Below are positions 2,527-20,690 of a DNA stretch of 20,808 nt, one piece after another. The stretch comes from a virus. The stretch's first letter is position 1, and every line of letters begins with the position of its first letter. The notes beneath the pieces are model-generated. The model had not been told where the DNA came from. It was given only the letters and a program-made list of their open reading frames with translations, and did not search any database. The DNA is taken from IMG/VR virus record IMGVR_UViG_3300031696_000082, positions 1-20,808 of that record; one strand, given 5' to 3'. A program made the translations under genes and the position numbers.

Positions 2527-5500
2527 ATGGTTGAATATATTGAGCGTGTAAAAGACGGTGCCTTCATGGACTTGAAGGATGACTATGACTTTCAAGTTGA
2601 CTTAGTTCAATTCTTTAGTGGTGGTCGATACAAAAAGTCTAGAGAAGAAATGAAGGAAGCAGGCTTTGAAGGTCTTACAGAAGAGTTTATTACTCACATG
2701 CGTTTTCAAAACTCTAACGAAGTTACAGCACTTATGGATCTTAACTACGTAAACGATAAGACTGCAAACCGAAAGGGAAAAGAGTCTTTTGGTAACTTAA
2801 TACAGGCTTGGGATAACTCTGACAGTGTAGGTACAGGATTCTTTGATGGCGCTAGTGATTACATCTATGGCACTATATCAGCCCCTTCTACCTACGTAGG
2901 TATAGGGAGTCTTGGTCTGGGTAAACTAGGTGCCAAGGCTGCAACGAAGGGTACTCAAATGCTTGTTCGCTCAAGCATACAGAAGAGTGTTGTAAAGGAT
3001 ACCCTGAAGCAGAGTGTTGTAAAGGATACCCTGAAGCAGAGTGTTGTAAAGAATACTCTAAAGGGTGTGGGAACTGGTTTTGTAGCTGAGTCTGCTATAG
3101 GTGGTGTTACTGCTTACGGCGCAGGCGAGACAAGAGAAGGACTAATAGAAGGTTATGAATACTCTGCTGCTGACCTAGCAAAAGAAGCTGGTATATCAGG
3201 ACTATTTGGCGCTGTGTTAGGTGGTGGTGGTGGTGCTCTAACGGGAGCAAAGGTATTTAATAAGTCTGAACTTGCTGCAAAGATGGCTATATCTACAGAA
3301 GAAGCTCGTAAGAAGGCAGCTGAGAAAGCCAAAAAAACTATTGATGGTGCTTCAGCAGAGCAAAAGAGTCTTGCGACAGGTAGGATTGTTGATCTTGAAG
3401 CTACTTTAGCTGCGAGAGCGGGTGACAGAAGTTCTAATATCCTTGAGCCACTAGACCCTACCCGTGTGGCGATGGGTGAAACAATACTTAAAGGTATCTC
3501 TGACCTAGATACCAAAGGTGAACTGTCATCTGGCTTGTCGATGGACACTATAAGAAGCATAACCGCTGCAACAATTGATATTGTAAATGCATTTGAAGTG
3601 AAGCCTAACGAAAGAATTACTTCTACTGTAGCCAGGCTTTTAGATGATCCATCTGTTGACTCTGGTTTGCAGATTAGTACTTTAGAGAAAATAAGGAGTG
3701 ACTATGGCCTGACTAGGCAGCAGATGTCCTACGTCTACTTGGCTGACGTGTCTCGCGCAGGTAAAATACTAGCTGAGCAATCAAGGATAGCTAAGGCAAC
3801 AAAGAAAGCTGGCAGAACATTTAGATCAGCCTCTGAAGAGGCAGCTGACAGTGCAACTCGTGTAGGTATGGACATAAATACTCTTGCTAAGCATGGGCTA
3901 TCATCCTTTGATGATCAAGCTGTTGCTGAAATGTCTAGTGAAGTAATAAAGAACTCTACTAAGAGAACAGCTGGAACTAAGTTCTATAACTTTCTTCAAG
4001 ATGCTGATCAAATGCGTATTGCATTTATGACTTCTCAGTTTACTACGACTGCACGTAACGTTACTTCAACTGCGTTGCTGGCTGCTGTTGATATATCTGA
4101 TGAGTTTTTCAGGGGAATGATAAGAGGTGTTCAAGGAAAGCCTACCAATTTAGTTAGGCGTATGTCGTCTACTGTTAGAGGTATGTCTTTCGACAACGCA
4201 ACAGCTGAGGTTCTTCGTGATGCATTCCTAGAGCAGATGCCTGAGGAGTATACTAAGACATTCTATAACACACTACGTATGGAAGTAGGTACACAAAGTA
4301 CCTCACGTATGGCTAAAGCAGGTCGCTTGGTTAACCTTGTGAACACATCTTTTGATACTGCCTTTAAGGAAGGTGCATTGTTCTCAAGCCTAGACAGACA
4401 ACTGAGTGATTTGGGAGATGAGACACTTGGTCTTACAGTGAAAGACTTTCTTGAGAAGGGTGGACGCTTAGACAATCTACCAGATGGTTTTATGGCTAAG
4501 TCTGTGGATGATGCAAACAGATTTACAATGCAGCGTACATACGAAGGGGATGAATCTCAATTTGGCATAAGAGCTAGGCAGGTATCCGCCTTAAACCAGA
4601 AGTATCCTTTTCTTATTTCTGCAGTCTTGGGTGTTCCCTTCCCACGATATGTAGCTAACCACATAGAGATGATTGCAGACTACACACCGATACTTGGTGC
4701 TGTTGTACCAGCACTAAAAAAGGCAGGCATAAATATAGGTGGTGATGCGTTTAAGTCTAACGAAGACAGGATGGTTAGACAATTAACTGGTACGGTGGCT
4801 ATTGGCCTAGGTTACATGTTTGCTAGGGAAAAAGAGGGTGAAGTAGATTACGGATCTATGGAAACAGCAGTAGGTGGTGACGCTGACCTAGCTCCATCAG
4901 CTGGCTTTCTAATTGCACCTATGTTTTTAGGTGACTTACTCTATAGACACAATGAAGGTCTAACTCTACCATCCAAATGGAAAACCCTAAAAGAAACTGG
5001 TGCAGTTTTAGGTGGTTTAGGTGACCTAGGTATTGATTTTTCATTAGCTGAAGAAACAGTTAAGTCTATAAAAGATGGAAACATTACAGAAAACTTACAG
5101 AAACAATTAGGTAATATAGCGGCTACCTTTACCTATCCTGGTACACTAGCTAGAGACATCACTGGCCAGTTCTCTTACGAAGCAGCTGGGACACCATACG
5201 TAAGAGACATTGATGGTATCGGACCAGTTGCTAACATGGGGGCAGGGTCAGCAACAAGCGATAAAGACTTACCTAAAAGTATGAAGGGTGAAAGAGGGAG
5301 TTATCAAACACTGTTTGGTCAAGCTACAAGAATGTTGATGGATTCTGATACACTGCAGTACACACAATCTTTTAGCAAAAACCCTAATAATGACATTGAC
5401 TACTACTCACCCTTTAACCCTGCACCTATCGGTAAGATGAACCCATTGCTTAAACAAATATCTGGCTTACAACAAAATGCCCCTATGACAGAGCTACAAC

Positions 5501-9960: not shown

Positions 9961-10344
9961 CTATCGGTTATCGCCACTGCCCCTTAGGGTTCCCCTAGCT
10001 TCACGTCCATCTAACTTCTCAACGTTCAGTCTGATGATGTCTCCAAGTCCGTAACCAAAGATCATACCAAGGGCTACGCCATAGAAAAAGACATCACCTA
10101 TCTCCTTAGCAATCTCCTCAGGAGTAAACTTGTGCTTGTCACGTATTAGTTTCTTAACCTTTTCAGCTACTTCACCTGACTCACCAACAAGTCCAAGGGT
10201 ATTCTCAACTAAACGATCATGTCCTTTAGTTAGAATCTTACCCTCAACCCATTCACTGTAACACTCAAACGGATCGACGCTATATTTATTTCCGTCTATC
10301 ATTCTGTAGTAGCCCATGGCTGTGAGATCCACATCACTCATCAT
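9961..10344 (-). CDS. mazG: MazG-like nucleotide pyrophosphohydrolase
   Basis: This 127-residue protein has the all-alpha NTP-PPase pattern: GLVGESGEVAEKVKKLIRD (51-69) with metal-binding E55 and E58, then EEIAKEIGDVFFY (76-88) with E81 and D84. The C-terminus LNVEKLDGREARG ... GSGDNR is typical of phage MazG homologues. The family removes pyrophosphate from NTPs or dNTPs; links to host ppGpp in cyanophages are debated. The first ATG (10344) overlaps the upstream stop by 4 nt; a second ATG follows immediately. It lies just before the ribonucleotide reductase, consistent with nucleotide-pool control. Confidence 0.9.
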   Translation of the reverse strand: MMSDVDLTAMGYYRMIDGNKYSVDPFECYSEWVEGKILTKGHDRLVENTLGLVGESGEVAEKVKKLIRDKHKFTPEEIAKEIGDVFFYGVALGMIFGYGLGDIIRLNVEKLDGREARGTLRGSGDNR

Positions 10345-10586
10345 TTTGTGCTGTCGTCTAAGCTTACCACCAGATCACCCAATGTATTCGGGAATGTGGG
10401 CCTAACTTCGAGTAGTCTTGTAAGCTCCTCTGTCTTCATCTGCTGCACAGAACTAGTACACTTAAGAATATGATCAAGTAAAGTAACAGAGTTTTTACCC
10501 AAGTTAAGTAAGTTAACAAGATCAATCTGCTCAGGTGTCATGCCTTCTGTTTCATACTCTTTATTATTAATAGATACTTTAGTCAT
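10341..10586 (-). CDS. Small unknown phage protein with a duplicated C-terminal peptide
   Basis: This 81-residue protein starts MTKVSINNKEYETEGMTPEQ, a pattern (INGKEY ... L-xEQ) common in small T4-like and T7-like phage proteins of about 70-80 residues with unknown function. The middle is helical. The last 12 residues, GDLVVSLDDSTK, are encoded by a 36-nt sequence identical to one at 20354-20389, where it lies inside a different gene. This tail may have been copied in. The start overlaps the upstream small gene by 8 nt (ATGACTAA), and the stop overlaps the MazG start by 4 nt. No function can be assigned. Confidence 0.75.
   Translation of the reverse strand: MTKVSINNKEYETEGMTPEQIDLVNLLNLGKNSVTLLDHILKCTSSVQQMKTEELTRLLEVRPTFPNTLGDLVVSLDDSTK
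10346..10381 (-). repeat. 36-nt direct repeat, copy 1 (pairs with 20354-20389)
   Basis: These 36 bases recur without mismatch at 20354-20389 in the same orientation. Both copies are read in the same frame as GDLVVSLDDST. It forms the end of the 81-residue gene and reaches to within 5 nt of its stop. Confidence 0.95.
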
Positions 10587-10743
10587 AAGTGTTTACCTCA
10601 CAGTTTGTTAGAATGATGTCATCAGTATCGTAGATCAAGTCGTCTAGCAACTCTAAAACAACTACACATGCATTGTCTTTTGATACCTCAAGAAAGTTAG
10701 CGTCTGGGTGAATTTCTAGTACAAGTCTAGCCTCAAATTTCAT
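10579..10743 (-). CDS. Small acidic phage protein (54 residues)
   Basis: This short gene fills the gap between the metallophosphoesterase and the 81-residue gene. It starts MKFEARLVLEIHPDAN and ends LTNCEVNTYD. A helix-like segment with VVVLELLDDLIYDTDDI (about 27-43) and a final strand give a pattern seen in small unnamed phage proteins (beta, helix, 'YDIDD', beta). The stop overlaps the next ATG by 8 nt (ATGACTAA), the same geometry as several other junctions here, which supports a real gene. AAGGG lies 9 nt before the ATG. Function unknown. Confidence 0.75.
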   Translation of the reverse strand: MKFEARLVLEIHPDANFLEVSKDNACVVVLELLDDLIYDTDDIILTNCEVNTYD

Positions 10744-10782
10744 TGGCGGAAACCCTTAGTTATATTATTTTCCATCAAAGTG

Positions 10783-11562
10783 TCAACCATATTCCCTGCG
10801 TAATGCAGCTAGAGAAACAAACTCTGGCTCATATACACCGTTACTTATCTCACGCTTGACAACAACACCTGACCACCAATCTAGGTTGGCCTGGCCTGCC
10901 CATCCTTCGTCAGCACCCTTGAAGCAACCGACGACAAGACCTAACGCACCAGCTGCATCCTTGAACTTAATGTCTCTCTTGTGTGAGTGACCGCACGTTG
11001 AACTCTTAAAGCGGTTAGCGAGTAAAGAGTTAGCGTGATGCATACCACTCATAGCTGTACCAAAGTTACCAGCACTAAAGAAGTGTGCGTAGGACACGCC
11101 ATCGTAGTCATGTATGGAAGGGGCTGAGTTGTGGTATTCGTGGTACTCATCAAACCAGTGGTTAGTTTGTAGGTGGCTGAAGGATATTCCGTACTTGGTT
11201 CCCTCTAGGCGGGGGTCACTGGACAAAGCCTTCTTGATGCGGTGCTCGTGGTTACCCTCAAACCCATAGTAGGCTGGACGCTTACGCTTATGATGCCTGA
11301 ACTTCCAACGTAGACGATCTTGTGCTTCGTTGTACTGCTCAATGTCTTCCTGATAACTCTGACTTACGATAGCTTGTGGGCTGCGTGTATCAAATGTATT
11401 TAGGGAACGCATGTCGGCACCATCACCTAGGTCCACAACATAGTCAGGCTTAATATCGTAGATGAACTCACCAAGAAGGCTGAACCTCTCGTTACTTATG
11501 GCGGGGTCACAGTGAGCGCAAGAGAATACAACAGCTGTCTTTGATCTAGAACTTTTAAACAT
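10783..11562 (-). CDS. Calcineurin-like metallophosphoesterase
   Basis: This 259-residue protein has the order of metal-binding motifs of the metallophosphatase fold: FSCAHCD (13-19), VVDLGDGAD (42-50), EGNHEHR (102-108), an HH pair at 175-176 and TCGHSHKRD (189-197). The first motif is normally D-x-H; here the Asp is Cys15 (C-A-H17). From memory close marine-phage relatives have the same SCAH, so this is probably a family trait. The substrate is unknown; neighbouring endonuclease and MazG genes suggest nucleic acid or nucleotides. The ATG overlaps the upstream stop by 8 nt (ATGTTTAA). An intergenic space of 39 nt follows. Confidence 0.85.
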   Translation of the reverse strand: MFKSSRSKTAVVFSCAHCDPAISNERFSLLGEFIYDIKPDYVVDLGDGADMRSLNTFDTRSPQAIVSQSYQEDIEQYNEAQDRLRWKFRHHKRKRPAYYGFEGNHEHRIKKALSSDPRLEGTKYGISFSHLQTNHWFDEYHEYHNSAPSIHDYDGVSYAHFFSAGNFGTAMSGMHHANSLLANRFKSSTCGHSHKRDIKFKDAAGALGLVVGCFKGADEGWAGQANLDWWSGVVVKREISNGVYEPEFVSLAALRREYG

Positions 11563-11818
11563 GATCGTGTATCCCTCTTACAACGTCATCGTGCTGGGTA
11601 TTACCATTACGATCAATAACAATACTGATGTTGTTAGACAAGAAGTCTACGTCATCCATAGCTTGAGCCATGTTAGCGTAGTAAAACTCTTCTTCGTGTA
11701 GGTTGCTATCGTACTTGTACCTAGTCAAGCAAAGGTTCCAAGGAAGGTTCTCACCATTCTCAAATGGCCCTTTGATTACCTTAAGTATCTCAGCGTATGG
11801 TTCAAACTCTTTAGGCAT
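11555..11818 (-). CDS. Unknown phage protein (87 residues)
   Basis: This acidic 87-residue protein (start MPKEFEPYAEILKVIKGPFE, end VVRGIHDHV) resembles no family I can name. It has mixed strand and helix character, with aromatic residues clustered at YKYDSNLHEEEFYYANMAQA (34-53). It overlaps the upstream endonuclease gene by 8 nt (ATGCCTAA) and the downstream phosphoesterase by 8 nt (ATGTTTAA). It is therefore translated within a tightly coupled trio and is likely real. Placement suggests an accessory role in DNA metabolism, but the sequence gives no direct evidence. Confidence 0.7.
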   Translation of the reverse strand: MPKEFEPYAEILKVIKGPFENGENLPWNLCLTRYKYDSNLHEEEFYYANMAQAMDDVDFLSNNISIVIDRNGNTQHDDVVRGIHDHV

Positions 11819-12221
11819 TACTGCTCTCCTTTAACCAGGATTCTGGTATAACCTTATCGGCATAGATGAAGTCGTGTTTCTTACACCATTCACCGTATGT
11901 TGTCTTGCTTCCCTTATATAGGCGTGACTTACTATTTGTAAAGACAAACCTTATGTCGTGATCAGGAAACTGTTTCCGTATTTCCTTGTGCTTCCTTCTG
12001 TCATCTGAAACGAATCGGCCCTTTGTCTCAACTATGATACCGTTACCTAAAACAAAGTCAGGTGTGTAGGTTCTATTGCGTAAGTCTATCCACTTAATCT
12101 TTGTTTTCTCGTAGGTAAAGGGGATGTTTCTTTTCTTAAGGTAGTTAGCTGTATCTACCTCTAAGCCTGAGCGATACCCTTCTTGGATACCCCTCAATCT
12201 CTTGCTATTAAATTTCACCAC
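11811..12221 (-). CDS. T7-type endonuclease I (Holliday junction resolvase)
   Basis: This 136-residue protein is a clear homologue of T7 gp3. It keeps YRSGLE (16-21), FTYE (35-38), YTPDF (52-56) with D55, and IIVETKG (62-68) with E65 and K67. These match the catalytic positions E20, E35, D55, E65 and K67 of the T7 enzyme nearly by number. SDDRRKHKEIR, RFVF and SRLYKGS also follow the T7 order. It should cut branched DNA, and in T7 the enzyme also degrades host DNA. The start codon is GTG (12221; a second GTG follows directly), overlapping the exonuclease gene by 14 nt, with GAGGA about 10 nt upstream. Confidence 0.95.
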   Translation of the reverse strand: MVKFNSKRLRGIQEGYRSGLEVDTANYLKKRNIPFTYEKTKIKWIDLRNRTYTPDFVLGNGIIVETKGRFVSDDRRKHKEIRKQFPDHDIRFVFTNSKSRLYKGSKTTYGEWCKKHDFIYADKVIPESWLKESSNA

Positions 12222-13092
12222 GGTATGTTAAGTCCTCTGCTACGTTAGGTAGTTTGTTTACCTTAGTTAGGTATAGCGGTTTGTCACTGTATATAAACTT
12301 ACGTAGCTTAGGGTAACATACCTTCTTAAAGTCACAGTAACCACACGCAGACGGTAGCTTAAGGTTACCGTTGTTGCTTGTCTTTGATTGAGGTATAGGT
12401 TCAAAGGCTCTCTCAGGTGGCTCCTCACTTTTAGCCATCTTCTTAAGATGCTTAACCGTACTCTCTTTGTTATCAAACTCTTCTGAGAAGTCGTATATGT
12501 CTAGGCAAACAGAGCCACTGACCTTACAGACCACGAGAAAACCACCGTGTGTCTTGTTGGTTACAAGCGGGTCATCCTCAGCCGCGTAGACGTAGGAGCT
12601 AAGCTGGGAGATGTAACCAAAAGGATCATCCCTACGTAAGTTACCATCCTTAAACTTCTTAAAGGCGTAAGGTGATGCAGACTTAACATCAATAGTCATA
12701 CCGTTTATGACAGCATCCCTGTGTCCCTTGATGCCATGTACATCCATACGGTCTTGCATACCAGTGACTGAGTGTCCAGACACAGCTGCCACCGCTAGTA
12801 CTAACTCTTCAATCATGTCTCCGTAGAAGAACTTGAATAGAGTATCAGGGCCTAGAGGCTCAGACTCTAATGGCTTGTTAACTTTGTACCATAGTTTACG
12901 CTCACACGGTGTACCTAGAGAAGACAGGGATAAGTAGGCACGAGGTTCCTGTGGTTTAGCAAACCGCTGTTCAGCCATTTCGGCTATGTTCTTAGACATG
13001 AAGTCACCTATAGCTGTGTCCCAACCATTGCGTCCTAAGATAGTCTGCTCAATGTCGTGTACTAGCGTATCGTTTGTTTTAGCTTCTATCAT
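12208..13092 (-). CDS. Cas4/RecB-like PD-(D/E)XK exonuclease with probable Fe-S cluster
   Basis: This 294-residue protein shows the layout of Cas4-type phage exonucleases: PCERKLWYK (62-70) with C63, FYGDMIEELV (89-98), GHRDAVI (123-129) with D126, TIDVKS (133-138) with catalytic D135 and K137, and ISQLSSYVYA (161-170) with the Q-x3-Y motif. CGYCDFKKVC (250-259) follows. The four Cys (63, 250, 253, 259) fit an iron-sulphur cluster as in Cas4 and AddB. It probably replaces T7 gp6 exonuclease in degrading host DNA and in recombination. The start has GAGGGAG immediately upstream. It overlaps the endonuclease I gene by 14 nt. Confidence 0.9.
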   Translation of the reverse strand: MIEAKTNDTLVHDIEQTILGRNGWDTAIGDFMSKNIAEMAEQRFAKPQEPRAYLSLSSLGTPCERKLWYKVNKPLESEPLGPDTLFKFFYGDMIEELVLAVAAVSGHSVTGMQDRMDVHGIKGHRDAVINGMTIDVKSASPYAFKKFKDGNLRRDDPFGYISQLSSYVYAAEDDPLVTNKTHGGFLVVCKVSGSVCLDIYDFSEEFDNKESTVKHLKKMAKSEEPPERAFEPIPQSKTSNNGNLKLPSACGYCDFKKVCYPKLRKFIYSDKPLYLTKVNKLPNVAEDLTYRGEI

Positions 13093-13114
13093 ATCGCTCC
13101 CTCTTTATAAGAAC

Positions 13115-13140
13115 GCCCCCACCCAACTAAGGGAAGGGGC
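13115..13140 (-). terminator. GC-rich hairpin after the SSB gene (possible attenuator)
   Basis: GCCCC pairs with GGGGC and CCC with GGG across a 2x2 internal loop, closing a 6-nt loop (13125-13130). On the - strand it lies 32 nt after the SSB stop and 23 nt before the exonuclease ATG. The sequence after it (GTTCTTATAAAG) is not a strong U-tract, so partial termination or RNA stabilisation is as likely as full termination. The + strand is followed by TTTGTT. Confidence 0.5.
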
Positions 13141-13171
13141 TTTGTTATAGAACAACACACATTTGAATTAC

Positions 13172-13714
13172 CTAGAAGGGTATAGCATCATCTTCAATCA
13201 ATGCTTTCTTCTTGGGTGCTTCGGTAGTTGGGGTAGCTTTGGTATCCCCTGCAATAGAGGATAAGTCTTTGAAGGTAGAGGGGGAGGCTCCTCCTTCAGA
13301 CTCGTAGGCCACTTGATCAATGACCTGTACAGCTTCAAGACGTGTACCCCTACGTCCAGTAGATGTATCATAAACAGCTACACGTACCATGCCTGTGCTG
13401 CCGTTACCTATAAACCCGTCTATGTCAAAGTTCCAGTCAATGCCCTTCACGTTAACAACGGTGGGAGTGCCACTATTCCAGTCGTTTCTGCCTTTGAAAG
13501 GGCGGCTAAGTGTAACCTTAGTGCCACCTTCAACAGAATCCATTTTCTTCTGACAGCCAGATGCCTTAAGCTTATCTGTGTTGTCTTTATCAAGGATGAT
13601 GGTAACCTTGCATTCACCATCTGTCTCAACATTCCAAGATGCTTGGTCACGATTGTGTTCAAATACCTTAGCCCATTCTAGTGTGCCAAACAATTCAAGA
13701 ATCTCAGTAGCCAT
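13172..13714 (-). CDS. Single-stranded DNA-binding protein (T7 gp2.5-like)
   Basis: This 180-residue protein has a beta-rich core (about residues 8-140), compatible with an OB fold, then a Ser/Thr/Lys linker and an acidic tail ending DDAIPF. An acidic tail with a terminal aromatic is the hallmark of SSBs that contact polymerase and helicase, as in T7 gp2.5 and bacterial SSB. The core differs from bacterial SSB and fits the gp2.5 type better. AGAGG lies 8 nt before the ATG. It is placed between polymerase and exonuclease, as expected for a replication operon. A hairpin follows the stop. Confidence 0.85.
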   Translation of the reverse strand: MATEILELFGTLEWAKVFEHNRDQASWNVETDGECKVTIILDKDNTDKLKASGCQKKMDSVEGGTKVTLSRPFKGRNDWNSGTPTVVNVKGIDWNFDIDGFIGNGSTGMVRVAVYDTSTGRRGTRLEAVQVIDQVAYESEGGASPSTFKDLSSIAGDTKATPTTEAPKKKALIEDDAIPF

Positions 13715-13759
13715 TTTTAGTACCTCTTTTTTATGGTGTTTGTGTTATATTATTAAATC

Positions 13760-15721
13760 CTAGTGTGTGTCAAGCCAATTCTGTCCAACGTCATAAGATC
13801 CTGGCGTAGGTATTCTAAAACCTAACTCAACCCCTACCTCTTCCATGCATTTAGCCTGCACCCTACCTAACTCCTCAGCCTCTTCCTTAGTTCCTTTAAC
13901 CTCTGTCTGGTACTCATCGTGTATGAAGCCTACCATCTTGAAGTTGATCCCTAGCTTACGAGCTTCCTTAGTCCAGCTGAGTAACGTGTGCTTCATAAGA
14001 ATACTTTCGGCTGACTGTAGCATACCAGCTAGAGTCTTGTGTTCGTTGGGAACCTTAACCTTACGACCATCATATCCTGTGAAGTACCCTTGCTCAGCAA
14101 TGTAGGGGACAAGCCTGTTCTTTAGGTCAGCCAATCCATCAATAGACTTAACGAATGAATCCCTAGCCTTTACTGCACCTACCTTATTGATCTTAAGTAT
14201 CTGTGCAGTCTTCTCAACACCTGCCCCCAGTAGCCATGCGTAGATAAAAGTCTTAGCCATGTCTCTTGTTGCATGCTTAATACCCAAAGCTTTCTTGTTG
14301 ACGTTATGTATGTCTGTCTCATCTTCCTTCTTACCCTGCATGATGGCAAGCGCATACTGATCAGCATCAAAGTGACGCCACATATAGTCAGCTAGTACAC
14401 GTAACTGAATCCCGTCTGCGTCCGTACCTACCAGCCAGCTACCATCAGGTGTTGTCCAACATGCACGTAGGTGTGAGTCGTACTGGTTCTTAACTTCCTC
14501 AACTGCTGACTTAGGTTTGCCATGAAAAGCTGATGGGATGTTGGCTGTGTTTGGTGCGTTGTGAGCGCACCGTCCTGTCCAAGCACCTATGTTGTTTATT
14601 GTACCATGTACACGTCCATCAGCACCTACCTGATTTATCCACTCCACTAGGGAACTACGCCTACCCTCAAGGGTAAGCCACTTAGCTAATGAACGAGCAC
14701 CATCAGGAGCATGCTCAGGTAGTGTCTCAAGGTTATCCTCAGAGCAAGCCCAGCCATACGTAGCCAAGTCATCCTTCTTCTCTTTGTAGAATGCCTTAGT
14801 CATAGACGTGATCCTCTTACCGTATGGGTCACCAACCGACAGCCTACCAAACTTGATAGCAGTAACCGTCTTATCGTAAGGCTTCCAACCAGCATCCCAT
14901 AGGGCTTCAATCCTATCCTTAGATGATCCAGGTTTGAAGTCTATCCAGTTGTAGCAGACAAGATCCTCACCTACTACCTGTGTCAAAGCATACTTCTCCT
15001 TAGCCTTAACAACACTGGATGCCTCTGTGCCATCCTTCTTTAGGCGGTACAACATCGTGTTCACAGGTGTCATCTTAGGTGGGAAGTCTACTTGAAACTG
15101 TTCTTCCAACGTATCCATCTGCTTACGTATAGATGTCAGTAGTCCGTCAGCCTTAGGTGTATCAAAGGCAAACCCATAGTATCTAGTGCGTACCAACTCA
15201 ATCTGTAGGTCATGCTCAGCACGTAAAGACTTCTTCCAATCAGCATCATAGATGTACTTTGAAAAATGATTATACAAAGCCTCAGTCGTATCCAAGTCAC
15301 CGTACCAGTAGTCCACCATCTCCTGAGAAAACTCACCAAAGTTATGAAAGTCTCCCTTGTGTACACCAAGCCTACGTCCCCAAGCATCCAAGCTATGGGG
15401 TGACCTAGCACCAGAGGGTATTGATATACCGTAGTCAACGATACGAGATATAAGAAGAGTATCAATCACCTTAGTAGGATCAATGAGCCTAGGCTTAAGT
15501 AACCTATTTATTTCAGGCGCATCAAACTGTATGAAGTTATGTCCAACAAAATACTCAACTGATTGGTGCCACTTAATTGCCTCAGCCTTAGCGACAGGAT
15601 CATCATGGCAGTTCTCAAACTTGTATACCTCACCTGTAGCTACGTCCTTACCACCACACAACCAAAGCTTATCACTACCTCTGACTGCATTAGTTTCGAT
15701 GTCGCTTATCACAATCTTCAT
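13760..15721 (-). CDS. T7-like family A DNA polymerase with 3'-5' exonuclease
   Basis: This 653-residue polymerase compares with 704 residues in T7 gp5. Exonuclease motifs: SDIETN (6-11; D7, E9), VGHNFIQFDAPE (59-70) and YGDLDTTEALY (140-150). Polymerase motifs: A, GTDADGIQLR (432-441; D434); B, RDMAKTFIYAWLLGAG (486-501; R486, K490, Y494); C, GFIHDEYQ (598-605; D602). Y494 matches T7 Tyr526. Two positions differ: Q439 stands where T7 has Glu480, the steric gate, and L498 where T7 has Tyr530 (Pol I Tyr766). No thioredoxin gene is in the window. The ATG overlaps the primase-helicase stop by 4 nt, with GGAGG 13 nt upstream. Confidence 0.97.
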   Translation of the reverse strand: MKIVISDIETNAVRGSDKLWLCGGKDVATGEVYKFENCHDDPVAKAEAIKWHQSVEYFVGHNFIQFDAPEINRLLKPRLIDPTKVIDTLLISRIVDYGISIPSGARSPHSLDAWGRRLGVHKGDFHNFGEFSQEMVDYWYGDLDTTEALYNHFSKYIYDADWKKSLRAEHDLQIELVRTRYYGFAFDTPKADGLLTSIRKQMDTLEEQFQVDFPPKMTPVNTMLYRLKKDGTEASSVVKAKEKYALTQVVGEDLVCYNWIDFKPGSSKDRIEALWDAGWKPYDKTVTAIKFGRLSVGDPYGKRITSMTKAFYKEKKDDLATYGWACSEDNLETLPEHAPDGARSLAKWLTLEGRRSSLVEWINQVGADGRVHGTINNIGAWTGRCAHNAPNTANIPSAFHGKPKSAVEEVKNQYDSHLRACWTTPDGSWLVGTDADGIQLRVLADYMWRHFDADQYALAIMQGKKEDETDIHNVNKKALGIKHATRDMAKTFIYAWLLGAGVEKTAQILKINKVGAVKARDSFVKSIDGLADLKNRLVPYIAEQGYFTGYDGRKVKVPNEHKTLAGMLQSAESILMKHTLLSWTKEARKLGINFKMVGFIHDEYQTEVKGTKEEAEELGRVQAKCMEEVGVELGFRIPTPGSYDVGQNWLDTH

Positions 15722-17334
15722 ACTTGATATGATACCTCCGATAGTACCGTAGTGTCTGGGTCATAGTAGACGCTACCTGACCTACCTAAGTTAGCGAAGG
15801 GACGGTTCTTGTCAACTATGAAGTTAGTTGTGTTACGAATTATATCATCCTCTGATTCAGTGTCACGCTCAAGCTTAATACAAACGATAGCTTCCTCCTC
15901 CAGTGATGCAGCATACTTGGTACGCCCATCATCATTGACCTGAGAGATAAAGATAACACCAATGTTTAGTTCCTTAGCAAGCTGAGCCATACGTGCGCCC
16001 AACGTGGTCAGTGTACTGGTGGCTCCCTCAACACCCGCGTTAGATAGATAGGCTAGGCGTTGAACGTGGTCAATGAAGATGAACTCTGCACCATAGACTG
16101 TAACCGCAAGACGCACATAGTCTAGTAGCTGCATTGGATCATCATGTCCACGCATCTCAAATATAATAGTCTTATCATCCTGTGCTGCAATCTTAGCTGC
16201 AAGTATCACCTGATCCTCAGTCACGCCATTGTCGGCTGCATCCTCCTTAGTACGCACGTTAATACCTAGTTCGTAGGTAGCCATGGCGCGATAGGTAGTA
16301 GACTTCTGCTCCTCCATATGAAGCATGGCTAGCTTAGTGTTGTTCTTCAGCAGACCAACCTCAAAGTATCTAATCAGTTCTGTCTTACCCTGTCCACGCA
16401 TAGCCTTGATGAACGTGAGGCCACCCTTGACTAGGCCACGTATCTTATCGTCAATACCTGTGTGACCAGTGGGTACATACTCATAGGGGTTCTCTGTAGA
16501 GATAGCCTTCTCTACCTCGTGGTCACCCACAAAGAAGTTGTCGGGGCTAAATCGTTGAGGCTTAAGACCTGACCACTTAAGATCATCCTGATCACCATTC
16601 ATTATGAAGTCGTTTGCATCCTTGTGCTTAGTCATAGGCACATAGAAGAACTTCTCAGGAAACAAAGCATACAATCTTTCAGCCGCTGCCTTACCTGCTG
16701 GGTCTTGTTCACCTGCGTAGACAACCTCAGTGAAGCTGTTCATGTACTCAAAGTTCTGCTTGATAAACTTATCTGAGATAGATGCACTAGGTATGGCCTT
16801 AACTGGAAAGCTTTTGCCTAAGGCTTGGTAGAGACTAGCGGCATCAAACTCACCCTCAGTTATGTATAGTCTTTTGCTTGAGCCTGCGTTGAAGTCAGGC
16901 CCAAACAGTTCACGGGGTGTACCCTTCTCTTTTGTCCAAAACTTCTTCTCGTCATAGCCACGATACTTAACGTTGCTAGGGTACTTAAATGCGTACCTAA
17001 CTGGATCACCTTCTGAATCAAGCTGAAGTTGAATGCCGTACAGTGTAGCCACGTCAGTGTCTAAGCCCCTTATCCCTGCGTTTGTAGCTGATACTACCTG
17101 TCGCTGTTGTACTGGTGGCTTACGCTTCTTAACTGGGTAGGTTTCTAAAGCCCAGTCCTTCATCTTCGCTGTACTTGGGTACGAACCCTTACAGGAGTGA
17201 CAGCTACCATAGCCGCCTGTATTGTAGTTGAATGCATCCGAACTTTTGCATGCCTCGAAAGGGCATTCTTGTCCAGGAATGTCCACACCTTTATCCTTTG
17301 GTCTAATATCTGACATCATTACTACCGAACTCAT
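15718..17334 (-). CDS. T7 gp4-like primase-helicase
   Basis: This 538-residue bifunctional protein has an N-terminal zinc-binding module: C24-x4-C29 and C45-x2-C48 (T7 has C-x2-C in the first pair). The TOPRIM primase domain has YITEGEFDA (157-165) with E160, AGEQDPAGKAA (207-217) in the place of the usual D-x-D, and KDANDF (238-243). The RecA-like helicase has Walker A AMRGQGKT (311-318), Walker B FIFIDHVQRL (418-427) with D422, and IFISQ (461-465). KNRPFANLGRSG (509-520) is the likely arginine-finger region. It should unwind the fork and make primers. GAGGGG lies 8 nt before the ATG. Its stop overlaps the polymerase ATG. Confidence 0.95.
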   Translation of the reverse strand: MSSVVMMSDIRPKDKGVDIPGQECPFEACKSSDAFNYNTGGYGSCHSCKGSYPSTAKMKDWALETYPVKKRKPPVQQRQVVSATNAGIRGLDTDVATLYGIQLQLDSEGDPVRYAFKYPSNVKYRGYDEKKFWTKEKGTPRELFGPDFNAGSSKRLYITEGEFDAASLYQALGKSFPVKAIPSASISDKFIKQNFEYMNSFTEVVYAGEQDPAGKAAAERLYALFPEKFFYVPMTKHKDANDFIMNGDQDDLKWSGLKPQRFSPDNFFVGDHEVEKAISTENPYEYVPTGHTGIDDKIRGLVKGGLTFIKAMRGQGKTELIRYFEVGLLKNNTKLAMLHMEEQKSTTYRAMATYELGINVRTKEDAADNGVTEDQVILAAKIAAQDDKTIIFEMRGHDDPMQLLDYVRLAVTVYGAEFIFIDHVQRLAYLSNAGVEGATSTLTTLGARMAQLAKELNIGVIFISQVNDDGRTKYAASLEEEAIVCIKLERDTESEDDIIRNTTNFIVDKNRPFANLGRSGSVYYDPDTTVLSEVSYQV

Positions 17335-17370
17335 ACCGTGTTCCCCTCTGAGTTGTTGTTACTTGGCATC

Positions 17371-17607
17371 CTAGCCTCCTCTAACCTCTATCTTAAACAA
17401 GCCTTCACTCTGCTTCATAGCTGCCCACAAGTCAAGAAGCTGCTGAGAAGAGATAGCAATAAGATGGTGGTCATCAATTGATTCATCCCACTGCCTAAAG
17501 AAAACGCTGCCATCATCAGTGAAGTGCATCTCTACATCTTCAAACTCATCGTGTTGATCCAATGATGTGACAACTGTGGTGTCATACTCGTGTTCAACTG
17601 TGAACAT
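17371..17607 (-). CDS. Small acidic conserved phage protein
   Basis: This 78-residue, strongly acidic protein begins MFTVEHEYDTTVVTSLD and contains FFRQWDESIDDHHLIAIS (36-53), then a helix QQLLDLWAAMKQSEG. From memory an unnamed family in marine phages has the same layout (VEHEYD-xxxI-xLD, RQFDE, LS-xQ-xx-L-AAL). Function unknown. GAGGAG lies 5 nt before the ATG and overlaps the stop of the tiny membrane peptide gene upstream. Confidence 0.75.
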   Translation of the reverse strand: MFTVEHEYDTTVVTSLDQHDEFEDVEMHFTDDGSVFFRQWDESIDDHHLIAISSQQLLDLWAAMKQSEGLFKIEVRGG

Positions 17608-17616
17608 AATGTCTCC

Positions 17617-17712
17617 TCAAAAAAGTAAAGTGACTATGAATGTGGTTGTAAAGACTCCAATAAAGAAACCCAACGCCGCACCCACAAGCCCTGCTATTTC
17701 TATCTTATTCAT
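17617..17712 (-). CDS. Tiny single-helix membrane peptide (31 residues)
   Basis: The peptide starts MNKIEIAGLVGAALGFF, and almost all of residues 7-31 is a hydrophobic helix with Gly/Ala followed by Thr/Phe. Its ATG overlaps the ThyX stop by 4 nt (ATGA), and its stop overlaps the ribosome site of the next gene, so it fills the space exactly as a coupled gene would. It has no cytoplasmic domain. Function unknown; a membrane-acting early peptide is one possibility, and a chance frame cannot be excluded. Confidence 0.6.
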   Translation of the reverse strand: MNKIEIAGLVGAALGFFIGVFTTTFIVTLLF

Positions 17713-18398
17713 TTGCACAACCTCAATGCAAACCAAGATATAGGGAATAGCTCCTTCATACTGTTACATATATCATTAGCTACTAGTCTAGTCTCTAACT
17801 GTGTATCACCTGTACACCTCAGGTTGCACATGTCAGCGAAGGCATCGAGGCTACCTGACCAGTACCACTCAGTCATGGTGTTTTGTGGCAACACCATTCT
17901 TGCTTGCTCCTCGCAAACGCCCCTATCTAACATGCTTTCGTATAGCATAGCAACTATACGTTGTGTTGTAGCAATGTGTATATCTTGTTGATCTTCCAAC
18001 GCTGGACCACTGCCTTGCTTCTTATCCTGTGCTTTGCTACGCCACTCATCAGGTTCATAGAACTCAGGGGCATTGCTCACGTATCTACGACTGATCTCAT
18101 TCCAACGTAAGAACTTATGCTTGACTAGCTGACGTGCCACAAAGATAGGTGCCTTGATGTGGAAGGATGCGAAGCAGTGTCCAAAGGGTGAGGTATGTTT
18201 ATGCTTGGCTAGGTAGTTGATTAGCTTCTCATCTTCATTAAGCATAAAGGTAGGCTCCTCCCACTCACGATCAAAGTCAGCAGCAATCTCAGCTTCATCA
18301 CCATAATAGTACCTAGACTTTTTGCCAAAGGATACACGGGCTGCATTAACTACGGATAGATCACTACCCATGTGGTCTATGTATGTTGCTTCAATCAT
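17709..18398 (-). CDS. thyX: Flavin-dependent thymidylate synthase ThyX
   Basis: ThyX makes dTMP from dUMP with FAD, NADPH and methylene-tetrahydrofolate. This 229-residue protein has NAARVSFGK (18-26), KHTSPFGH (67-74; family HxSPFEH), ARQLVKHKFLRWNEISRRY (88-106), ARMVLPQN (166-173) and CNLRC ... TQLETR near the end. The signature RHR-x7-S appears as K93-H94-K95-x7-S103, with Lys in place of both Arg. From memory some marine-phage ThyX proteins also vary there (VKHQ types). The start overlaps the upstream small gene by 8 nt (ATGATTGA) with GGAGG in front. Together with the B12 reductase it gives the phage its own dTTP supply. Confidence 0.95.
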   Translation of the reverse strand: MIEATYIDHMGSDLSVVNAARVSFGKKSRYYYGDEAEIAADFDREWEEPTFMLNEDEKLINYLAKHKHTSPFGHCFASFHIKAPIFVARQLVKHKFLRWNEISRRYVSNAPEFYEPDEWRSKAQDKKQGSGPALEDQQDIHIATTQRIVAMLYESMLDRGVCEEQARMVLPQNTMTEWYWSGSLDAFADMCNLRCTGDTQLETRLVANDICNSMKELFPISWFALRLCK

Positions 18399-18582
18399 CT
18401 TTGATATCCTCCAACTCTATCCTTAAGCATGTTATCGTTTCAGTTGAATGATTGGACATAACTCTGGCACTGGTCAACTCTGCACCACACAAGACATCTG
18501 TCTCAAATGTATTAAGGTGGTGGTAGTTAACTCCTTGCTCAGGCAGTACTTGAAACCAAATAAGTAACCATACGTATTTCAT
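18391..18582 (-). CDS. Small exported or membrane-anchored protein with two Cys
   Basis: This 63-residue protein begins MKYVWLLIWFQVL, a short hydrophobic start that fits a signal peptide or anchor, followed by a polar domain with C32 and C52 that could pair in the periplasm. Small phage proteins with this layout (hydrophobic start, HHLNTF-like strand, two Cys) recur in marine phages without known function. It overlaps the upstream gene by 4 nt (ATGA) and ThyX by 8 nt. An AAGGGGGG-rich ribosome site precedes the ATG. Confidence 0.7.
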   Translation of the reverse strand: MKYVWLLIWFQVLPEQGVNYHHLNTFETDVLCGAELTSARVMSNHSTETITCLRIELEDIKDD

Positions 18583-18779
18583 TTTGTACCCCCCTTGTTC
18601 AAGTCTTCTATCTCTTTAGCCATGAGTATGAAACCTTCTGCCATACTGTTGTGCTTTTCTATCATGTCGTCAATGTCTTCTTCCAACTCATCTAAAAATC
18701 TGTCTGTCTTGTAGTTTTCAAACACTAGCATAGCTAACAAGACACCATAACCGATCATTGTTATATCAACTACTTCCAT
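18579..18779 (-). CDS. Small membrane protein with coiled-coil tail
   Basis: In this 66-residue protein, residues about 5-21 (DITMIGYGVLLAMLVFE) form one membrane segment. Residues 26-62 are charged and heptad-like (DRFLDELEEDIDDMIEKH), likely a coiled coil. No family is recognised. AGGAG lies 8 nt before the ATG, overlapping the end of the gene upstream. Its stop overlaps the next ATG by 4 nt. The layout recalls spanin-like or inhibitor-like phage membrane proteins, but nothing in the sequence decides this. Confidence 0.7.
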   Translation of the reverse strand: MEVVDITMIGYGVLLAMLVFENYKTDRFLDELEEDIDDMIEKHNSMAEGFILMAKEIEDLNKGGTK

Positions 18780-18790
18780 GTGTGTAACTC

Positions 18791-18943
18791 CTAATGATAT
18801 GTAATATTATCTCTATCCTTCTGCCATTGGACGAACTCTTTTTCTTCAATACCATTGTAAATTAAAAAATCCTGGAGATCATATATCTGTTCAAACAAAT
18901 CCTCAATTATTTCTGAGAATTTGTAGGGTTCATCCTTACTCAT
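18791..18943 (-). CDS. Small acidic protein (50 residues), unknown
   Basis: This frame starts MSKDEPYKFSEIIEDLFEQI and ends QKDRDNITYH. It is rich in Glu, Asp and aromatic residues and probably helical. GGAG lies 7 nt before the ATG, and the stop lies 11 nt before the next gene's ATG with that gene's AGGAG between them. Good ribosome-site spacing and tight packing support a real gene. No relative recognised. Confidence 0.65.
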   Translation of the reverse strand: MSKDEPYKFSEIIEDLFEQIYDLQDFLIYNGIEEKEFVQWQKDRDNITYH

Positions 18944-18985
18944 AGTAATACTCCAAGTATTTTATTAACGAAAGATATGTAAGCA

Positions 18986-19084
18986 CTACGTAAAAAGAAA
19001 TATTGCTGTCATTACTATGATGCTTGAGCCAGTAATTATTATTGCAACGACACTGACAAATGTTGCTAACTTTATTAATCTCAT
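18986..19084 (-). CDS. Tiny membrane peptide (32 residues)
   Basis: The peptide MRLIKLATFVSVVAIII continues as a hydrophobic helix to the end (FLFT). Two positive charges at the N-terminus suggest an inside N-terminus or a signal-anchor orientation. AGGAA lies about 8 nt before the ATG. It occupies an otherwise empty space and lies directly after the inverted-repeat region. Could be a chance frame, but two similar peptides lie nearby. Confidence 0.5.
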   Translation of the reverse strand: MRLIKLATFVSVVAIIITGSSIIVMTAIFLFT

Positions 19085-19099
19085 ATCTATTTCCTACAT

Positions 19100-19213
19100 A
19101 CTTATAGTATACTAATGGTAGTACTGTTCGTACCCTATCTCATAATGGAGATGATATAAATACTATAAGTAAATACTTTAAGTATTCTTTTAGTTAAGGA
19201 TACGAACTAGTAC
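19100..19213. repeat. AT-rich region with interleaved inverted repeats
   Basis: This region falls in the 149-nt stretch 19085-19233, which holds no gene. ACTTATAGTAT (19100-19110) is repeated inverted and exactly at 19160-19170. A second imperfect pair, GTACTGTTCGTACCC (from 19121) and its inverted counterpart GGATACGAACTAGTAC (19198-19213), differs by one gap and one substitution. The order is A-B-A'-B', so the pairs interleave. A small palindrome, AATACTT-T-AAGTATT (19172-19186), lies between them. Possible uses are a regulatory RNA structure, operator sites or a replication start; none is shown. Confidence 0.6.
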
Positions 19214-19218
19214 GTCAA
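19190..19218 (-). promoter_or_regulatory. Weak sigma70-like promoter candidate
   Basis: TTGACG (19218-19213 on the - strand) is a good -35 match. The best -10 at standard spacing (AACTAA or TTAACT) is poor. It lies at the edge of the gene-free inverted-repeat region, pointing towards the small genes and ThyX. Kept only as a candidate. Confidence 0.25.
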
Positions 19219-19233
19219 GGGGTAGGCTGCAAA

Positions 19234-19308
19234 CTATCTTGATAATAAGTAAATGAATACAAAGATTGCAACGTTAATACCTACTGCTACTAATTCTAGT
19301 GCTATCAT
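19234..19308 (-). CDS. Tiny membrane peptide (24 residues)
   Basis: MIALELVAVGINVAIFVFIY followed by LLSR is one uninterrupted hydrophobic helix. AAGG lies 6-7 nt before the ATG, just after the stop of the 75-residue gene. It is short enough to occur by chance; the ribosome site and the presence of similar peptides nearby are the only support. Confidence 0.4.
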   Translation of the reverse strand: MIALELVAVGINVAIFVFIYLLSR

Positions 19309-19317
19309 TCTATACCT

Positions 19318-19545
19318 TTACTTCCATGCTGGACTACCAATTTCTTCATGCTCACCACAAATCCATTCTTCATGTAATAAATTTATCTCAACCAGTACTC
19401 TTGCTCTAGCAGCATAGTATTCCATTGTTTCTACATCCGCGTAGTCAGGTTCGTCTTGGTCTGACATAATAATGTCTGAAAGTACTACCTCGCGCATGCA
19501 TAATAATTCCTCAATGCTTATCTCTAACGATACTTTGTATGCCAT
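19318..19545 (-). CDS. Small acidic protein (75 residues), unknown
   Basis: This acidic protein starts MAYKVSLEISIEELLCMREV and contains MEYYAARARVLVEINLLHEE, giving a strand followed by two helices. No family recognised. AAAGGA about 10 nt before the ATG comes from the end of the upstream gene, whose stop lies 4 nt before this ATG. Part of the run of small early-type genes. Confidence 0.65.
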   Translation of the reverse strand: MAYKVSLEISIEELLCMREVVLSDIIMSDQDEPDYADVETMEYYAARARVLVEINLLHEEWICGEHEEIGSPAWK

Positions 19546-19549
19546 GTTC

Positions 19550-19702
19550 CTAAAATCCTTTGGGTTCTATGTGGTGTATTGTGTCGTGAGGGAATTGATC
19601 CCGCACCCACTGCGTTAAATTTTCTTGATGGTCAGATACCTTAAGCTCGACCTCGTACCGCTTACCCTTGGGGCTAAGCATAACAACTCTGTATTCATTC
19701 AT
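19550..19702 (-). CDS. Small unknown protein (50 residues)
   Basis: The frame starts MNEYRVVMLSPKGKRYEVEL and ends HHIEPKGF. Two beta strands with a GKRYEVEL turn and a central helix (DHQENLTQWVRDQF) suggest a compact alpha-beta fold. The ATG shares its first base with the TGA stop of the gene upstream (TGATG), and GGAGAAG lies 5 nt before it. This coupled geometry makes a real gene likely. Function unknown. Confidence 0.7.
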   Translation of the reverse strand: MNEYRVVMLSPKGKRYEVELKVSDHQENLTQWVRDQFPHDTIHHIEPKGF

Positions 19703-19950
19703 CAGAACTTCTCCGCTATCTTTGCAAAATCCAGGATTATGTTACGGCTGTTTGTGTGTGTCTCTCCTTCGATCATTCTGTTTTCCCATCCATCATTGAT
19801 TGCGTATGTCCAACCAGCATCAGGCGCGGTGTGTAATACCCTTGTCTCGCCCAGTTTATTAACGACAGTAAATTTAAAACGTGGGTTACCCATACGGCTC
19901 TTGGTCAGTCGGCGCATGGTCTTAATGAAGTATCTCTCTTGGTCGCTCAT
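19702..19950 (-). CDS. Small basic phage protein (82 residues), unknown
   Basis: I choose the ATG at 19950 (MSDQERYFIKTMRRLTKSRM): AAGGA lies 7 nt upstream. A longer frame to 20016 exists but would overlap the gene upstream by 35 nt without a better ribosome site. The N-terminal part is basic and helical; the rest contains PRFKFTVVNK, GWTYAIND and a final helix. No family recognised. The stop overlaps the next gene by 1 nt. Confidence 0.65.
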   Translation of the reverse strand: MSDQERYFIKTMRRLTKSRMGNPRFKFTVVNKLGETRVLHTAPDAGWTYAINDGWENRMIEGETHTNSRNIILDFAKIAEKF

Positions 19951-19981
19951 AATTTTATCCTTCTTTACTGTATAATAAAAT

Positions 19982-20275
19982 CTATTTGGTATCATGGTGG
20001 AACCACGCCCTGTCATCAGAAGCTAGCACCTTAGGAGCCCAGTATTTTGCAGCACCATCCTCACCCATCTGTAGTCTAAAGTTAAAGGTAGTGCTTACCA
20101 TATGGCATAGCCGCCGCATATCCCTTAGGGCTGATAGTTCTACATCTAGACACTCAACGATGTTGTCTACATGACTGTCTATTGAGTTGTATAGTTCTAG
20201 TACCTGCATCAGGTCTGCTACTGATATTGTTAAGGTATCTGTTGGTTTGATTGGTGTTGTTTTAGATTTAGACAT
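19982..20275 (-). CDS. Small unknown protein (97 residues)
   Basis: Residues 1-15 are a Lys/Thr/Pro-rich start. Residues 16-60 form helices (SVADLMQVLELYNSIDSHV and following) with two Cys. The C-terminal part ends DDRAWFHHDTK. No family recognised. AGAGGGA lies 9 nt before the ATG, and the start overlaps the upstream gene by 8 nt (ATGTCTAA), which supports it as a coupled gene. Confidence 0.65.
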   Translation of the reverse strand: MSKSKTTPIKPTDTLTISVADLMQVLELYNSIDSHVDNIVECLDVELSALRDMRRLCHMVSTTFNFRLQMGEDGAAKYWAPKVLASDDRAWFHHDTK

Positions 20276-20690
20276 TGTTAGTATTCCCTCTAAAGGTTAA
20301 GTTAAGTTTTAATCCGCTTATCTGATGCCATCCCATTGGCATACAGACATGGGTTGTGCTGTCGTCTAAGCTTACCACCAGATCACCCACTGATATGCTT
20401 GTGTGTTTCATTAGATCATGCCTGTCTATCTCCCCAGACCCGTGACCATTACCCTCCGCAAATATGTACTCAAGTGTTGCACGGTTGGGCCTGTCGTACC
20501 CGATCATAAACATGGTGGGCCTGTATAGGTTATGGTCTACTGCATTTTGCACTGCTTCTTCTGCCGCACTACCGTCAGGCATAGTAAGCAAATCAAAGTA
20601 TGCTTTCTTTTTTGTTGTTAGTGTCGTGCCATTCAATTCATCTTGAAAATCTTCGTCCAATGGCCGCTGATATATTAAATAAGAATGCAT
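20268..20690 (-). CDS. Conserved phage protein with SVGDLVV ... CMPMGW C-terminal motif
   Basis: This 140-residue protein starts MHSYLIYQRPLDEDFQDELN. Residues about 103-128 (HTSISVGDLVVSLDDST, then HVCMPMGW) match a motif (SMSVGD-VV ... VCxxMGW) that I recall at the end of small phage and plasmid proteins of YodL-like type with unknown function. The 36-nt repeat encodes the centre of this motif, which looks like its native place. GAGGAAT lies 7 nt before the ATG, and the ATG overlaps the upstream stop by 1 nt. Function unknown. Confidence 0.7.
   Translation of the reverse strand: MHSYLIYQRPLDEDFQDELNGTTLTTKKKAYFDLLTMPDGSAAEEAVQNAVDHNLYRPTMFMIGYDRPNRATLEYIFAEGNGHGSGEIDRHDLMKHTSISVGDLVVSLDDSTTHVCMPMGWHQISGLKLNLTFRGNTNNV
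20354..20389 (-). repeat. 36-nt direct repeat, copy 2 (pairs with 10346-10381)
   Basis: Identical over 36 nt to 10346-10381 and in the same coding frame. Here it lies inside the 140-residue gene, within its SVGD ... PMGW motif, so this is probably the source copy. Confidence 0.95.

Follow-up and report, generated by a model that had tools for sequence, protein, structure and literature searches.

A 46-nt insertion at the end of a small phage gene, probably a recent patch templated by two distant genes

Class 2 templated sequence insertions (TSI/TSIP) are known in human genomes, where they have been ascribed to the patching of breaks (PMC5110952). A replicative model, microhomology-mediated break-induced replication (MMBIR), has been proposed from eukaryotic rearrangements (PMC2621351; for templated insertions, PMC8421209). 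For phages, literature titles and abstracts yielded no case of a multi-donor templated insertion, most subscription papers lying outside this search. Here we describe a candidate from a viral contig, the analysed window being the entire 20,808-nt stretch of IMG/VR record IMGVR_UViG_3300031696_000082. Its genomic background is likely that of marine roseophages of the HMO-2011-type/CRP-13 kind (PMC9038755, PMC8528129), with which it shares genes for DNA polymerase A, exonuclease, endonuclease I, MazG (found in CRP-6), B12-dependent RNR and PhoH. Conversely, it differs from these phages in the two genes considered below, a small gene encoding 81 aa and a gene encoding 140 aa, neither of which is matched in isolated phages by tblastn.

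The two genes share a perfect 36-nt direct repeat, positions 10346-10381 being identical to positions 20354-20389 (39 nt at 97% identity), with a start-to-start distance of 10,008 nt. Both copies are translated in frame from the - strand as GDLVVSLDDST, and the identity and shared peptide first noticed in a sequence-only reading of this DNA are thus borne out by coordinates and ORF translations. That reading had also suggested a search for further copies; in the window and related contigs (147 loci, 1.13 Mb) we found no other dispersed exact repeat of at least 22 nt, which argues that the 36-nt match is not due to chance. A blastn self-comparison of 482 kb recovered the same single pair. Since the contigs are partial and may hide longer-range repeats, this count is a lower bound. 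A mobile element or dispersed repeat family was considered and rejected, as only one pair is present in the 1.13 Mb and no exact copy was detected in viral contigs. Elsewhere in the window (2981-3061), three tandem 27-nt units of 9 residues each are found within the gene for a 1175-aa protein.

Comparison with closely related strains revealed that the altered stretch is larger than this repeat. The IMG/VR contig 3300028548_001590 (loci L004 and L006) is 99.4% identical to the window over 11.2 kb, and their whole overlap contains 18 substitutions and one gap, which corresponds to exactly 46 nt at 10347-10392. Alignment to this contig and to a second one that is nearly identical around the site (L003), and also devoid of the 46 nt, delimits a - strand insertion, CCCGAATACATTGGGTGATCTGGTGGTAAGCTTAGACGACAGCACA, flanked by CCCACATT and AAATGATGAG and located immediately before the stop codon of the small gene (10341-10586, - strand). 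No base of the target has been lost and none duplicated, the joined sequence reading CCCACATT, insert, AAATGATG. As expected of a templated insertion, the insert is absent from close relatives, the donor is kept, and there is neither a target-site duplication nor any transposon end.

The 36 nt can be traced to the 140-aa gene (20268-20690, - strand), whose product matches no known family and whose predicted structure was of low confidence and was set aside. The donor peptide is native to this gene in all five relatives found, SVGDLVVSLD being invariant in the aligned sequences. The donor copy of the repeat (20354-20389, - strand) is marked by an allele: position 20359 is G in this contig, giving an AGC codon, and A (AAC) in 5/5 relatives. 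The recipient copy (10346-10381, - strand), which supplies the same peptide to the altered end of the 81-aa protein, carries AGC, as does this contig's own 140-aa gene. On this sequence evidence, copying is one-way, from the 140-aa gene into the 81-aa gene, and recent, and the earlier suggestion of a short patch copied between genes can be given a source and a recipient. In the simplest history, the AGC change would have occurred first and the patch would have been copied afterwards. Loss of the patch from the two other strains is disfavoured, because the AGC change would then have to arise in both copies.

Thirteen of the 18 substitutions that separate the window from 3300028548_001590 fall between 18848 and 20682 (1.9 kb), four of them within 30 nt at 19318-19347, and another related locus (L010) agrees with 3300028548_001590 across 18848-20682 wherever it is readable. 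This cluster could reflect either recombination over a short tract or a stretch that changes fast in this lineage only. Given such clustering at 18.8-20.7 kb, part of the sequence may derive from another close strain, and the AGC allele may exist elsewhere. In L003, near-identity to 3300028548_001590 upstream is followed by sharp divergence near the mazG/RNR boundary (L003 2250-3000), a point which, judged by the abrupt change in identity, is a recombination breakpoint between strains. Related phages are mosaic, L003 itself losing its near identity and becoming strongly divergent in the space of 2.5 kb, and the 46 nt might accordingly have been acquired by recombination with an unsampled phage in which they form one continuous native stretch. 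We nevertheless find this improbable: the joined insert has no exact match in 2.9 million viral contigs or in a bacterial genome collection, and its allele agrees with that of the contig's own 140-aa gene. Furthermore, the same near-identical genome continues on both flanks of the insert, which also speaks against the genome-mosaicism junction that had been proposed for the repeat.

Of the insert, 11 nt (CCCGAATACAT) are not accounted for by the 36-nt repeat. Together with the next two bases, these constitute CCCGAATACATTG, the first 13 nt of the insert (10380-10392, - strand), which overlap the repeat by 2 nt (TG) and are present at L006:7155-7167 within a gene matching a phage DNA methyltransferase family; at least the first 12 nt are present in L007 and L008 as well. 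This site lies outside the window and was absent from the sequence-only reading; it is found ~1.1 kb upstream of the donor segment of the 140-aa gene, shares its strand and keeps the order of the insert. Since our contig ends ~0.66 kb short of the position, the second donor is observed in relatives (L006, L007 and L008). The chance of such a 13-nt match is ~0.001 (0.00085 and 0.00115 with shuffled 13-mers); a null of 13-mers drawn from related phages gives 0.015, a value inflated by homology. The methyltransferase-like gene is a likely second donor on the basis of these 13 nt seen in relatives, so that two fragments from one strand, joined in the order of the genome, probably make up the insert. 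The overlaps at the junctions amount to 0 nt on the left, 2 nt (TG) between the donor pieces and 1 nt (A) on the right.

These junctions bear on whether the patch might have been put into the contig by a chimeric molecule, formed during amplification or library making, or by misassembly. Such an artefact would agree with the insert being known from a single contig (exact scans of viral contigs for the repeat, the joined insert and the target site found no second carrier), and also with the donor allele being the contig's own, as something made within one sample would give. We consider it unlikely, however. Misassembly from k-mers requires long shared words at the joins, for which the observed 0-2 nt are too short, and the joins must therefore lie in reads, whereas a chimera would need two or three switches and a return to the exact base left. 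Moreover, the differences from the near-identical strain resemble real substitutions under selection, with 7/16 coding differences altering an amino acid.

Our preferred explanation, with an assigned probability of about 0.73, is a templated insertion that took place recently in this phage's lineage; the lack of microhomology at the left junction counts against it. What the sequences show directly is the insertion together with its main donor, the matching allele and the junctions; the physical process, which we infer, would be either template switching in series or the joining of small fragments into a break. Under template switching, the nascent strand would have come off its template after ...GGCCCACATT during replication of the small gene or repair of a break within it. 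It would next have copied ~13 nt of the methyltransferase-like gene, moved ~1.1 kb along to copy ~36 nt from the 140-aa gene, and rejoined the target at the very base it had left (AAATGATGAG), all segments being on the same strand. The outcome is a 46-nt filler that replaces the last residues LNDE by FPNTLGDLVVSLDDSTK and leaves the start of the next gene untouched. With its segments ordered along one strand, minimal overlaps and a return to the exact target base, the insert is best fitted by serial template switching (template switching as such had been raised from the repeat alone), with capture of small fragments in a break as the alternative. It has the appearance of a rare error of replication or repair, observed soon after it arose. 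One arm of a 6-bp inverted repeat (CCACAT/ATGTGG) ends at the insertion point; this is a hint only, as 1.4% of positions qualify (a post hoc figure) and the fold energy at the target is ordinary (z -0.8).

The insertion changes a protein of 68 residues ending in PTLNDE into one of 81 residues ending in PTFPNTLGDLVVSLDDSTK. The protein is predicted to form a β-hairpin and a long helix followed by a disordered tail, residues 64-81 of the 81-aa model having pLDDT values below 50 save for one residue; two relatives of the small protein give weak DUF6447 matches, below the curated cut-off. As the sequence-only reading had anticipated, relatives end differently: GDLVVSLDDST is missing from all small-gene relatives aligned, in which the protein is 68 (two strains), 87 (a sister clade) or 69 residues long (more distant ones) and terminates in LNDE, in long KKQADDIKK tails or in EELDL. 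In the sister clade (L015-L024, upstream of mazG), a different small-gene end, 57 nt longer, occupies the same spot (window 10341-10400) and encodes the tail ISDVTKKQADDIKKSLDADTNAK; a search of the related-phage loci compared for its source located this end at its own site only. Directly downstream lies the gene for a MazG-like pyrophosphohydrolase (9961-10344, - strand), the start codon of which has been preserved and shares bases with the new stop (ATGA). As the tail that received the insert differs among relatives and is predicted to be disordered, its change is probably near-neutral.

The same observations weigh on the idea, put forward together with the repeat, that GDLVVSLDDST is a selected tag, i.e. 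a working module (an interaction or degradation signal) common to the two proteins. The peptide is in frame in both genes, and the end of the longer relatives, DDIKKSLDADTN, aligns with GDLVVSLDDSTK. Frame agreement, however, has a 1 in 3 chance and does not need selection, and the similarity between the new tail and that of the sister clade is weak (p about 0.02-0.05). The tail is carried by one strain only, and the perfect DNA identity makes the copy so young that selection could not yet be visible. Taken with the predicted disorder and the variability among relatives, this renders a selected tag very improbable.

In order to place the templated insertion among other strain-level changes, we surveyed 381 pairwise contig alignments at ≥90% identity (1.68 Mb aligned), which contained 92 insertion events of at least 12 nt, not deduplicated; some of these gaps are alignment splits of diverged stretches, making the denominator rough. 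Among the distinct inserts of up to 300 nt listed, only the 46-nt one has a source elsewhere in its own contig for most of its sequence; the second-longest copied match among the inserts listed is 16 nt, within a 208-nt insert. If confirmed by reads, the rarity of such patches would be, roughly, one per ~1.1 Mb of related contigs. As the sister clade possesses a different, longer tail at the same spot, the small gene/mazG position may be a hotspot of patch capture, possibly at a replication-stalling hairpin, and templated insertions at gene ends a recurrent route to new protein tails in marine phages, a conjecture that we regard as unlikely. The case illustrates that a single step can give a protein a different tail, with sequence borrowed from an unrelated gene.

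Although this kind of mutation is already known, what we describe is a polarised, allele-marked templated insertion in a phage, probably with two donors. It departs from the class 2 TSI/TSIP of human genomes (PMC5110952) in affecting phage DNA, in having two tiny same-strand donors in genome order and in being without a known reverse transcriptase route. It resembles them as a short patch from a distant place in the genome that leaves the donor intact, without target-site duplication and with little or no microhomology at the joins. Compared with MMBIR, one join here is devoid of microhomology and the model was derived from eukaryotic rearrangements; yet a composite multi-template filler, very short overlaps and a return to the original template are common to our insertion and to serial template switching of this type. 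If confirmed by reads, template-switch patches of the human type would arise in phage populations too.
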